Program-made: the position numbers and the translations under genes
NCBI RefSeq assembly: GCF_005795905.1
Contig: NZ_VAWE01000001.1
Span: 496,001-560,000 of the forward strand
Length of the DNA stretch: 64,000 nucleotides
Direction of reading: 5' to 3'
Origin: Streptomyces marianii
GTDB lineage: Bacteria; Actinomycetota; Actinomycetes; Streptomycetales; Streptomycetaceae
Shown: piece after piece, positions 27,390 through 57,313 of the stretch
Position numbering within the stretch: position 1 is the stretch's first letter
How the letters are laid out: each line of letters begins with the position of its first letter
Notes under the pieces: generated by a model
Database searches by the model: none
The model's input: the letters and a program-made list of their open reading frames with translations, nothing else
Told to the model about the DNA's origin: nothing

Positions 27390-28283
27390 TCAGCCGATGG
27401 GGACTTCGTTGGAGCGGGACTCGATGGCACCGAGGGTGGCGAGGGTCGCGGCGTCGAAGGTGATCTCGCTGACCGCCATGTTGGCCTCCAGGTGGACGGC
27501 GTTGGCGGTGCCGGGGATGAGCAGCACGTTGGGAGCGTGGTGCAGCAGCCATGCGAGGCCGACTTGGGCAGGCGTGACGCCCAGGGACTCGGCCACGGCG
27601 AGCACCGCCGGCTCGTCGGTGACCTGGGGCAGGCCGGGGATGGCTCCGCCGAGCGGGAAGAACGGCACCCAGGCGATGCCCTCCGTCTCACACAGCCGCA
27701 GCACCTCCTCGTCACCGCGGGAGACGAGTCCATACGCGTTCTGCACGCAGACGATGCCCGCCGGCAGGGCACGGCGCAGGACGTCGAGGGTGATGCCGCT
27801 CAGACCGATCGCACCGATCTTGCCCTCGTCGCGCAGGGCGGTCATCACCGCGAGCTGGTCGTCGAGGTCGACGACCTGGTCGCCCTCGGGACGCAGCCCG
27901 GGGCCGGAGTCGAGGCGCCGCAGGTTGACGACAGCGAGCCGGTCGAGACCGAGACCGCGCAGGTTGTCCTCGACGCTGGCGCGCAGTTGCTCGGGCCGCT
28001 GCGCCAGACGCAACGGCAGATCCCCGCCCGGGTTGGGGTCGGCGCCGACCTTCGTGACGACCAGGACGCCGTCCTCGGGGTGCAGCACCTCGCGGAGCAC
28101 GTCGTTGGCGAAACCGAAGCCGTAGAACTGGGCGGTGTCCACGTGGTCGACGCCCAGCTCGATCGCGCGGCGCAGCAACGCGACGGCCTCGCCGCGGCGG
28201 TCGTGCAGGCGCTCGAGCTGCAACGCGCCGTAGCCGATGCGGAAGACGGTGCGGGCGGCTAACGAAGCGGTCGCGGTAATCAT
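27390..28283 (-). CDS. Aldo/keto reductase
   Basis: 297 residues, one (beta/alpha)8 barrel. The catalytic tetrad positions are visible: Asp and Tyr in VDHVDTAQFYGFG (about 46-58) and the Lys in VVTKVGADPN. The usual His of the tetrad position reads Asn-Leu-Arg (VVNLRRLDSG) rather than HxHxxD. QNAYGLVSR and IPGTANAVHLEANM contribute NADPH binding. Start ATG overlaps the stop of the TetR gene (ATGA), so the two are translationally coupled. Probably reduces small aldehydes or ketones; substrate unknown. Confidence 0.9.
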   Translation of the reverse strand: MITATASLAARTVFRIGYGALQLERLHDRRGEAVALLRRAIELGVDHVDTAQFYGFGFANDVLREVLHPEDGVLVVTKVGADPNPGGDLPLRLAQRPEQLRASVEDNLRGLGLDRLAVVNLRRLDSGPGLRPEGDQVVDLDDQLAVMTALRDEGKIGAIGLSGITLDVLRRALPAGIVCVQNAYGLVSRGDEEVLRLCETEGIAWVPFFPLGGAIPGLPQVTDEPAVLAVAESLGVTPAQVGLAWLLHHAPNVLLIPGTANAVHLEANMAVSEITFDAATLATLGAIESRSNEVPIG

Positions 28284-28837
28284 GACGCTGTCTCCTCGGT
28301 CGGTGTTCGCAAGGCGGTGTACAGCAGTTCGGCCTGGTAGAGCGCCATGACCCGGTGGGCGATCGGGGTGGCGCGCTCCCGGGCTCGGGGCGGCTCGTGG
28401 TGCTCGACCTTGACGAGCCAGGCCGTGACGCAGTCGCGCAGCATCGCGCGCATCCGGTCGGTCATGTCGACGACGATGCCGTGGATGGCCGGGTCGGTGG
28501 TCGCCTCACCCCAGGTCTGCACGCCGACCCGGGCCTCGGCGGGGTCGATGGCGGCGATCAGGCGGGAGAGCAGTTCGTCGGGGCCGGGTGGGGCGTCGGC
28601 CGCGGCGTACTCACCGAGGACGTCGGCGCGCTTGGCGAGTACGTCGCGGGCGGCGGCCCGCACCAGGTCGGCCTTGTTGCGGTAGTGCGCATAGATCGAG
28701 CCGGCCGAGAGGCCGCACTCGGCGGTGATGTCGGCGATCGAGGTCCGCTCCAGCCCGTTGCGGCTGAAACAACGGACAGCGGCCTCGGCGATCTGAGTAC
28801 GCCGGAGTTCCTTGCGCGCGTCGGTGAGCCGAGGCAC
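28280..28837 (-). CDS. TetR-family repressor, probable autoregulator of the AKR/MDR operon
   Basis: GTG 28837 is preferred: GGAGG lies a few nt upstream, while the ATG at 28861 falls in the middle of a near-perfect operator palindrome. The 185-residue protein has the HTH RRTQIAEAAVRCFSRNGLERTSIADITAECGLSAGSIYAHYRNKADLVRAAARDVL in its first ~60 residues and a helical ligand domain. It is first in the operon with the aldo/keto reductase (overlapping stop/start) and likely controls both reductases and itself through the adjacent palindrome. Confidence 0.9.
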   Translation of the reverse strand: MPRLTDARKELRRTQIAEAAVRCFSRNGLERTSIADITAECGLSAGSIYAHYRNKADLVRAAARDVLAKRADVLGEYAAADAPPGPDELLSRLIAAIDPAEARVGVQTWGEATTDPAIHGIVVDMTDRMRAMLRDCVTAWLVKVEHHEPPRARERATPIAHRVMALYQAELLYTALRTPTEETAS

Positions 28838-28846
28838 CGCACCTCC

Positions 28847-28876
28847 CACAAAAAGAATCATGGTTCTTCTTGTGGA
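28847..28876. promoter_or_regulatory. Operator palindrome for the TetR gene
   Basis: CCACAAAAAGAA (28847-28858) pairs with TTCTTCTTGTGG (28865-28876) with one mismatch and a 6-nt centre containing CATG. It is strikingly AT-rich for this genome and lies 10 nt upstream of the TetR GTG, overlapping the promoter region. Size and position fit a TetR dimer pair. Confidence 0.75.
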
Positions 28877-28946: not shown

Positions 28947-29113
28947 CTAGTGCCGCGTCAGGCAAGGTTTGCCCGTCAAGGAGCGGCGTCCGGTGCGGTA
29001 AATCGCAAGGCGCCGGATCGACCTCGTAGTGGGCCTACTCGGTTGATCCGGCAACGCCGCGAGTCGCCGTGCCGGGCGCCGCGACGGGACGAACGTCGCC
29101 TGATGCGGCACTG
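28947..29113. mobile_element. MITE-like element, copy 1 (short form)
   Basis: About 165 bp beginning CTAG-tgccgcgtc and ending gatgcggcac, i.e. with terminal inverted repeats of about 10 bp. It matches the element at 55098-55489 along its whole length at roughly 90-95% by eye, except that the tandem array is absent here (joined at 'gtgcggtaaatcgcaagg'). The left end has the full CTAG; the right end reads CTGG, so that flank has decayed or recombined. There is no transposase gene inside; mobilisation in trans by an IS with matching ends would be required. Confidence 0.65.
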
Positions 29114-55097: not shown

Positions 55098-55489
55098 CTA
55101 GTGCCGCGTCAGGCGAGGTTCGCCCGTCAAGGAGCGGCGTCCGGTGCATGGGGTCTTCCCGGGCCCTCCGGCCGAGGGGGTGGGGTCTCCCCAGGCCCTC
55201 CGGCCGAGGGGGTGGGGCCTCCCCAGGCCCTCCGGCCGAGGGGGTGGGGCCTCCCCAGGCCCTCCGGGCCGAGGGGGTGGGGCCTCCCCAGGCCCTCCGG
55301 CCGAGGGGGTGGGGCCTCCCCAGGCCCTCCGGCCGAGGGGGTGGGGCCTCCCCAGGCCCTCCGGGCCGAGGGGAAGATCGCAAGGCCCCGGATCGACCTC
55401 GTAGGGGGCCTGCTCGGTTGATTCGGCAACGCCGCGAGTCGCCGTGCCGGGCGCCGCGACGGGGCGAACGTCGCCCGATGCGGCACTAG
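55098..55489. mobile_element. MITE-like element, copy 2 (with internal tandem array)
   Basis: It starts CTAG-tgccgcgtc and ends gatgcggca-CTAG, so the ~10-bp terminal inverted repeats are flanked on both sides by CTAG, a likely target duplication or part of the ends. Its outer parts (55098-55147 and 55374-55489) match the element at 28947-29113, and a 32-bp tandem array is inserted between them. No transposase is encoded. The right end lies 9 nt before the alkylsulfatase ATG, so that gene's leader is supplied by the element. Confidence 0.7.
55162..55373. repeat. Tandem array: six 32-33-bp units plus a partial
   Basis: Unit starts are 55162, 55194, 55226, 55258, 55291, 55323 and a 19-bp partial at 55355. 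Unit core: ggccctccggccgag then ggggtggggcctcccca. Units differ at one or two positions (gtctcccca in the first; an extra g in ccgggccg in units 4 and 7). Each unit contains the dyad TGGGG-cct-CCCCA. Because 32 is not a multiple of 3, all frames stay open across the array, which gives spurious Pro/Gly-rich reading frames on both strands. Confidence 0.92.
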
Positions 55490-55498
55490 CCTGCGGGC

Positions 55499-57313
55499 AT
55501 GACGGACCCTGACTTCGACGACGAGACGGACTTCGACAACGCCGACCGCGGCTTCATCGCCTCGCTGGCGAACCCGAGGATCACCGGCGCCGACGGCTCT
55601 CCGGTGTGGGACGCCGCCGCCTACGGCTTCCTGGCGGGGGACTGCCCGGACACCGCGCATCCGAGTCTGTGGCGACAGGGGCAACTGGTGGCCCGGCACG
55701 GCCTCTACGAGGTGACGGAGGGGATCTACCAGGTGCGCGGCCTGGATCTTTCGAACATGACGCTGGTCGAGGGCGACACCGGTGTGATCGTGATCGACCC
55801 GCTGATCTCGGTGGAGACCGCCGCCGCGGCGCTGGCACTTTACCGTGAGCACCGCGGCGACCGCCCGGTCACCGGGATGATCTACACCCACTCGCACGGC
55901 GATCACTTCGGCGGTTCCCGTGCGATCGTTCCGGACGGTTCGGTGCCGGTACTGGCGCCGTCCGGCTTCCTGGAGCACGCGGTCAGTGAGAACGTGTACG
56001 CCGGCACCGCGATGACGCGCCGCGCCGCGTTCATGTACGGCAGCGGGCTGCCCAAGGGCCCGGCGGGGCAGATCGGGTGCGGGCTGGGCACCACCACCTC
56101 CACCGGCACGATCAGCCTGGTGGCGCCGACCGTCGACATCACCCGTACCCGGCAGCGGGAGACCGTCGACGGGGTGGAGATCGTCTTCCAGCTCACCCCC
56201 GGTACCGAGGCGCCCTCGGAGATGAACTTCCTCTTCCCCCGGAGGCGGGCACTGTGCATGGCCGAGAACGCCACCCACACCCTGCACAACATCCTGACCC
56301 TGCGCGGCGCGGTCGTCCGCGACCCGCGGGTCTGGGCGCACTACCTCAGCGAGGCCGAGGAGCTGTTCGCCGACCGGGCCGACGTGGTCTTCGCCTCCCA
56401 CCACTGGCCGACCTGGGGCCGCGAGGCGATCGGCGCCTTCCTCACCGCCCAGCGCGACCTGTACACCTACCTGCACGACCAGACCCTGCGCCTGCTCAAC
56501 CAGGGGCTGACCGGCACGGAGATCGCGGAGGAGGTCACGCTTCCGCCGGAGCTGGAGCGGACCTGGTCCGCACGCGGCTACTACGGCTCGGTCAGCCACA
56601 ACGTCAAGGCTATCTACCAGCGCTACATGGGCTGGTACGACGGCAATCCCGCCCACCTGTGGCAGCATCCGCCGGTGGAGCAGGCCCGCCGCTTCACCGC
56701 CGACTACGGCGGCATCGACGCGATCACCGCCAAGGGCCGTCAGTACGCCGCGGCCGGCGACCTCCGCTTCGCCGCCACCCTGCTCAACCACGCCGTCTTC
56801 GCCCACCCCGACCACACCCCGGCCCGCGAAGCCCTCGCCGAGGTCTACGACCGGCTCGGCCACGGCGCCGAGAACGGCACCTGGCGCAACTACTACCTCA
56901 CCGCCGCCATGGAGCTGCGCGGCACCCTCGCCAAGGTGGCGGTCGACATCAACGACCCCGAGATGGCCATGGCCCTCACCATCGACCAGCTCATCGACTC
57001 CCTCGCCATCCGCGTCAACGGCCCCCGCGCCTGGGACACCCGCCTCACCCTGGACTGGCGGCTCACCGACCAGAGCCGGGCCTGGCGCCTCACCCTCTCC
57101 AACGGCGCCCTCACCTACCGCGCCCGCGACCTGAGCGCCGCGCCCGCCCGACCCGCCGACCTCACGCTGACCCTGACCAAGCCCCAGCTCCTCCGCGTCC
57201 TGGCCGGCCGCGGCCTGGACGGGGCAACCGTCGACGGTGACCCCGCCGTCCTGAACCGGCTCTTCTCCCTCCTCGACACCCCCGACCCCCAGTTCGCCGT
57301 CGTCACCCCCTGA
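55499..57313 (+). CDS. Alkyl sulfatase, SdsA1/metallo-beta-lactamase type
   Basis: 604 residues with the three-domain layout of SdsA1-like alkylsulfatases. The N-terminal metallo-beta-lactamase domain has the zinc motif YTHSHGDHFGG (about 124-134) and later AENATHTLHN. The central alpha-helical dimerisation domain has GWYDGNPAHLWQHPP and YAAAGDLRFAATLLNHAVFA. The C-terminal SCP2-like lipid-binding domain spans about 480-604 (AMALTIDQLIDSLAIRVNGPRAWDTRLTLDW). It hydrolyses primary alkyl sulfates to alcohol and sulfate. No signal peptide, unlike secreted SdsA1. No clear ribosome site: the ATG sits 9 nt after the MITE-like element. Confidence 0.93.
   Translation: MTDPDFDDETDFDNADRGFIASLANPRITGADGSPVWDAAAYGFLAGDCPDTAHPSLWRQGQLVARHGLYEVTEGIYQVRGLDLSNMTLVEGDTGVIVIDPLISVETAAAALALYREHRGDRPVTGMIYTHSHGDHFGGSRAIVPDGSVPVLAPSGFLEHAVSENVYAGTAMTRRAAFMYGSGLPKGPAGQIGCGLGTTTSTGTISLVAPTVDITRTRQRETVDGVEIVFQLTPGTEAPSEMNFLFPRRRALCMAENATHTLHNILTLRGAVVRDPRVWAHYLSEAEELFADRADVVFASHHWPTWGREAIGAFLTAQRDLYTYLHDQTLRLLNQGLTGTEIAEEVTLPPELERTWSARGYYGSVSHNVKAIYQRYMGWYDGNPAHLWQHPPVEQARRFTADYGGIDAITAKGRQYAAAGDLRFAATLLNHAVFAHPDHTPAREALAEVYDRLGHGAENGTWRNYYLTAAMELRGTLAKVAVDINDPEMAMALTIDQLIDSLAIRVNGPRAWDTRLTLDWRLTDQSRAWRLTLSNGALTYRARDLSAAPARPADLTLTLTKPQLLRVLAGRGLDGATVDGDPAVLNRLFSLLDTPDPQFAVVTP

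Follow-up and report, generated by a model that had tools for sequence, protein, structure and literature searches.

Small modular repeats of bacteria

REP sequences and BIMEs are intergenic palindromes that often lie near the 3′ ends of genes, as do the Streptomyces copies described here; to our knowledge, they have no TA-duplicating transposon ends and are spread by other means. We also know of no array in the Correia elements of Neisseria. These Correia elements are small and have inverted repeats, as the Streptomyces element does, and they are reported to undergo RNase III cleavage upon transcription (PMC3049150, in which BIMEs are also named). RUP of S. pneumoniae is likewise a small repeat whose ends resemble those of an IS630-type element (IS630-Spn1), as is the case here; the part of the source available presents it as a simple 107-bp repeat and makes no mention of an array, whereas the Streptomyces element has one (PMC3049150).

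In BOX, found in Streptococcus pneumoniae and S. suis, two end modules surround a variable tandem array, which is predicted to fold separately from the rest of the transcript (PMC3049150). The same design, that is, end modules with an internal tandem module of variable number, was found in the Streptomyces family. In S. suis, two kinds of end occur around one boxB, comparable with the unit common to two end families here, and the ends of BOX have been likened to ISSpn2, while those of the Streptomyces element match IS630 (same source). Unlike BOX, the Streptomyces element has a unit of 32–33 bp, located within a single arm of a hairpin that shows covariation. That is to say, it is best described as a MITE of the IS630 type with a BOX-like architecture and not as BOX, the likeness being one of design alone. 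A literature search, with most subscription journals outside its scope, found no Streptomyces MITE with an array.

The two copies in the window

The window, i.e., the whole analysed stretch of 64 kb, corresponds to C1:496001-560000 of the 9.0-Mb genome of S. marianii and contains two copies of the element (Table 1). An earlier note on this DNA had read them as MITE-like, with the same inverted ends next to CTAG and a difference of one block at one exact position. Copy 2 extends from 55101 to 55486 (386 bp), and its inverted ends match those of copy 1; in the left part the two share 44 of 46 bases and in the right part 104 of 110, and the five bases GGTAA of copy 1 are replaced in copy 2 by a 229-bp insert, so that the block difference at a single junction was borne out. 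In this insert, Tandem Repeats Finder reported 7.0 copies of a 32-bp unit with 96% matches (55149–55373). As to the flanks, copy 2 has CTAG on both sides as claimed, while copy 1 has CTAG on the left and CTGG on the right. CTAG occurs 8 times in the window against about 165 predicted by base composition, and three of these sites adjoin ends of copies 1 and 2. Because CTAG is so rare in the window, chance can hardly account for its presence at three of the four element ends.

The earlier note had also reckoned with the copies being part of a conserved gene or of an rRNA- or tRNA-like unit; neither a conserved gene nor a known RNA family was found to include them. A search of the window against Rfam matched no family, and L124, an array-less copy from a different species, had as its best Rfam match a microRNA hairpin model with 66.4 bits against a cut-off of 168.

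Table 1. Features of the two element copies and their neighbouring genes (window coordinates)
Feature	Position	Strand	Remarks
TetR-type regulator gene, neighbour of copy 1	28280..28861	-	Gene call
Presumed target-duplication TA in the left CTAG of copy 1	28948..28949	.	CTAG at 28947; right counterpart 29112-29113 is TG
Copy 1, array-less element	28950..29111	+	162 bp; junction GGTAA at 28997-29001
Left TA target duplication of copy 2	55099..55100	.	Sequence reading
Left arm of copy 2, with terminal inverted repeat	55101..55147	+	Sequence reading
Array of copy 2: seven hairpin-forming units of 32-33 bp at the left core junction	55148..55376	+	Tandem Repeats Finder and reading
Core hairpin and right arm of copy 2, with terminal inverted repeat	55377..55486	+	Sequence reading
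Right TA target duplication of copy 2	55487..55488	.	Sequence reading
Alkyl sulfatase-like gene (metallo-beta-lactamase fold), neighbour of copy 2	55499..57313	+	Start codon 12 bases after copy 2

The family in S. marianii and in the genus

With up to 3 mismatches allowed, the left-arm pattern matched the genome 47 times and the right-arm pattern 55 times, and the reversed controls gave 0 matches. Reading of 57 left–right pairings, two of which were palindromic copies read backwards, led to 55 elements, a census that is incomplete, since the first survey scored 40 of 251 candidates and some pattern matches were left unread. Among these 55, 15 lack the unit, 35 contain between one and seven, 2 are odd and 3 are short; the supposition that the array belongs to a single copy therefore does not hold. 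Elements with one, two, three, four, five, six and seven units number 9, 9, 4, 6, 2, 2 and 3, respectively, the unit numbers being rounded from insert lengths, with the irregular 61-bp insert of L077 scored as two. Most elements are 160–393 bp long, the three short ones measure 51–103 bp (cut-off 155 bp), and the two odd ones have inserts of 529 and 1693 bp and total lengths of 686 and 1850 bp. None of the small elements carries a transposase gene. Being short, present in many copies and equipped with inverted ends shared with IS630-type elements, the family has the MITE-like nature first proposed for it.

Some single elements deserve description. L063 (~952-1011) and L064 (~973-1027) contain elements of about 51–56 bp that have the same inverted ends, which nearly abut. 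L037 (G000:C1 ~1316830-1317515) has ten units and, within the 207-bp piece with which its insert begins, a foreign-looking stretch that is probably a nested insertion.

The unit is also found between other ends. The unit pattern gave 121 genome matches (control 0), and 14 stretches (L258-L271) were picked from these matches, among 100 places listed, and read: 13 of them contain a core like that of the first family, where units again occupy the same junction, in different surroundings. In 9 of these 13 second-family stretches both ends match GGGCGTGTT..AACACGCCC (up to 3 mismatches per side; L263 was represented by L066), and L258, L259, L262 and L269 are second-family copies worn or cut at one end. 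In L271 a first-family array adjoins a one-unit second-family copy. Minisatellites occur in GC-rich genomes, and on that ground the array could be thought an unrelated minisatellite that arose by chance inside one copy; dozens of copies from two families, however, have this unit at one and the same junction, which already contradicts the idea, and we regard it as extremely improbable.

In the genus, the left pattern (up to 2 mismatches) was found in 67 of 392 genomes, with the largest number, 53, in that of S. marianii. Named genomes, when scanned for exact matches, yielded at least 118 stretches, and the matches listed comprised 117 from Streptomyces and one from Kitasatospora. Array-less forms are present in other species. 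The idea that array-less copies are simple losses of the unit is not favoured, a similar array-less junction being found in other species (L116, L123, L191).

Ends, target site and transposase

The earlier note had proposed to look for full-length relatives with a transposase. Contig C3 of the same genome has an IS630-type element with the same ends, whose transposase gene (68234-69361) scores 156 bits with NF033545 (cut-off 100) and also matches PF13358. Its CTAG-bounded inverted ends lie 3.2 kb apart (L061:3222-6464, i.e., G000:C3 ~68221-71463, on a contig of 107.6 kb), and an IS3 transposase gene and an APH-family phosphotransferase gene lie inside as well; it is perhaps a transposon with passengers. 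This transposase is the sole full-length close copy found in the genome, the chromosome having fragments or distant relatives (32% identical) only. The IS630 copies L102-L104 (32% identical) were rejected as partners, as their ends differ. Relatives of the transposase at an E-value of 0.001 or better occur in 319 of 392 genomes. When 30 transposase loci (that of C3 and 29 relatives, 83–98% identical) were searched with up to 6 mismatches tolerated, at least one matching end was found at all 30 and both ends in inverted order at 24, the second end of L331 having 6 mismatches; in several loci the matching ends are about 1.23 kb apart.

The earlier note had suggested checking for a target duplication of CTAG; a duplication of TA within CTAG is supported by flank counts and by one clean empty site. 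CTAG stands on both flanks of 73 of 101 copies from other genomes (106 readings, five palindromic copies being read on both strands) and of 17 of 52 own copies, and on at least one flank of 96 of 101 and 40 of 52, respectively; an exact CTAG is missing from both sides in 12 of the 52 own copies. As for the empty site, L138 of S. viridochromogenes is occupied, while L299 in G172 runs through a single CTAG. With the two flanks of L138 put together, the alignment is at 82% and extends for about 295 bp to the left of the site and for 88 bp to its right, as far as L299 reaches. This fits TA duplication at CTAG. Of the three candidate empty sites shown, that of L138/L299 is clean, and those of L167/L150 and L014/L197 are not. 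The empty site thus concerns another copy of the family, and none was clean for the two window copies: for copy 1, the left flank is 88% (G382) and 90% (G360) identical in genomes without the element and the right flank is not alignable; for copy 2, relatives are homologous from the gene start onwards (81 genomes), and upstream, among the matches listed from 392 genomes (e.g., G191), the homology ends well short of the site. In summary, the family has inverted ends in common with an autonomous element and a TA duplication, which are the features of a MITE of the IS630 superfamily.

Growth of the arrays

The earlier note had spoken of one element that captured or grew an array; growth in place is now seen in the way units cluster by array, and it is not an event of one copy. 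For 104 units from 34 arrays of both families (each array's last unit and pieces outside 24–40 bp being excluded), the mean distance was 0.077 within arrays and 0.164 between them, and 0 of 2000 permutations gave a within-array distance as low. Moreover, 17 of 70 adjacent pairs consist of identical units, against 0.5% of between-array pairs. Since units are closer within than between arrays, this comparison of sequences shows that the growth of arrays was local and took place in situ. It could instead be supposed that amplification took place a single time, in a small number of master elements from which the array then spread by transposition, so that arrays were inherited rather than grown, and the similar last-unit variant in many arrays and the unit common to two end families would agree with this; but the clustering just described speaks against it, as do array lengths that occupy every step from 0 to 7, and we consider it unlikely. 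Local growth at dispersed copies is therefore retained. In a tree of the own backbones, arrayed and array-less copies are intermixed with poor resolution, so that the tree is compatible with a single origin of the unit insertion and also with several.

In other genomes, the unit-junction pattern was found in 11 of 392, with 104 matches here, 2 in G290 and 1 in each remaining genome, numbers to be read against a reversed control that gave stray matches of similar size. A broader junction pattern was found in 4 of 333 genomes (94 matches here, 13 in G290 and 1 each in G036 and G176), the single matches in G036 and G176 and a third place in G290 (C1:5820151) being known as pattern matches only. 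G290 contains 9.5 copies of a 34-bp variant of the unit between the same left and right arms, and in addition a two-unit copy (L366). Arrays of this unit are thereby confirmed in one other genome, and the restriction of arrays to the S. marianii genome is ruled out by these G290 arrays with their variant junction. G034 has three copies (L276-L278) with one unit each. These one-unit copies and the array-less forms elsewhere make it probable that acquisition of the unit predates this species, with array growth later and local.

In L308 of G350, a different hairpin is located at the opposite (right) core junction and has grown on both arms, to 4.0 and 6.1 copies. The expansion of this right-junction insert on both arms is seen in L310 of G350 as well, and the units in L308 are of 19 bp and 18 bp. 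Several other species have single, differing palindromic inserts at these core junctions. The core junctions are thus recurrent sites of insertion and growth.

Genomic setting

The neighbouring genes were taken from a crude in-house gene caller, by which some distances come out negative. After 17 copies lacking flanks or neighbours were dropped and 4 double readings removed, 137 copies were left, of which 67 lie between convergent genes, compared with 63 of 404 other gaps of at least 60 bp. Copies between co-directional genes lie at a median of 12–14 bp past the end of the upstream gene and 113–133 bp before the next start, 23 of them in sense and 35 in antisense orientation. Copy 2, placed 12 bases before the start codon of the alkyl sulfatase-like gene, is an exception to this placement at 3′ ends.

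Pairing of the hairpin and its strand

The pairing was studied in an alignment (A1) of 48 array-less rows chosen from 67 references, in which columns 22-47 are fixed in most rows owing to the exact fetching pattern. The predicted consensus has 57 pairs, of which 18 have changed on both sides, and 97.9% of cells are paired; 0 of 500 shuffles were as high on any of five measures, a test that kinship of rows can inflate, and in a sliding control the pairing falls to 33–47%. For wobble and energy counts, L190, which contains N, was excluded, leaving 47 rows. All 47 are predicted to fold with lower energy on the given strand than on the other (means −134.8 vs −98.8 kcal/mol).

When array-less copies were compared with their own reverse complement, which is blind to strand, 2792 Watson–Crick, 497 G.T, 26 A.C and 249 other cells were counted, and G.T exceeded A.C by 33 to 2 in column pairs with a mismatch in at least two rows and by 48 to 15 in those with a mismatch in at least one. 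With the array removed, 36 own arrayed copies (one with the 529-bp insert) gave 205 G.T and 104 A.C, and in 13 second-family copies of the same genome the asymmetry is nearly absent (48 G.T, 36 A.C). In a third end set (L147, L186, L194), one strand has 11–14 wobbles and the opposite strand 0; these three, from S. dysideae, are 196-bp hairpin elements with ends GGGGGTGTTTCG..CGAAACACCCCC. In other words, strand-specific pairing is strong in families without arrays and weak in those that commonly have them.

The one-strand wobble excess of array-less copies suggests selection on RNA, which may have been relaxed in arrayed lineages. The pairing could also be kept at the level of DNA, through transposase ends, a cruciform or template-switch repair of the palindrome, with the G.T bias caused by mutation that favours one strand or by a stage at which the DNA is single-stranded. 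The ends are indeed those of a DDE-type transposon, the wobble bias is slight in arrayed copies and in the second family, and a split of 23 sense to 35 antisense among co-directional copies is not what selection through host transcripts alone would predict; on the other hand, pairing of double-stranded DNA is blind to G.T versus A.C, yet the cells divide 497 to 26 and the column pairs 33 to 2, and a genome-wide mutational skew is opposed by the unbiased second family of the same genome. We give this DNA-level explanation substantial weight, somewhat short of an even chance. Selection on RNA is the reading followed below.

Proposed course of events and meaning

Taken as a whole, an account of an IS630-type, BOX-like modular MITE whose arrays grew at a fixed junction seems to us likely to be correct. 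IS630-type transposases would act in trans on the non-autonomous element and insert it into CTAG, with duplication of TA, and its body would form one long hairpin with the junction in the left arm. In one subfamily, a hairpin unit of 32–33 bp would have entered this junction, probably before this species. The unit then multiplied in place at dispersed copies, here and separately in at least one other lineage, presumably by slippage or unequal exchange. As each unit is predicted to fold alone, the array could grow without breaking the ends or the main hairpin. The array-less form is probably kept paired by selection, most likely on the transcript of the given strand, and putative effects on neighbouring genes would be exerted through hairpins near gene 3′ ends.

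More tentatively, and as a possible rather than a probable reading, the MITE transcript may be the unit of selection, with array-less copies constrained to a nearly continuous RNA hairpin, and the arm junction an open slot for self-folding units, which would enter and multiply there repeatedly and in different species. If that is true, tunable hairpins would be distributed across the whole genome, for the most part at the 3′ ends of genes. One genome offers dozens of dispersed copies with the same junction and 0 to 7 units, array-less controls, a second end family and an autonomous partner, so that two questions become testable: why some lineages allow array growth, and whether selection acts on bacterial MITEs at the level of RNA. 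Variable hairpins found between convergent genes of Streptomyces would be explained in part by this family, whose arrays could serve as typing markers.
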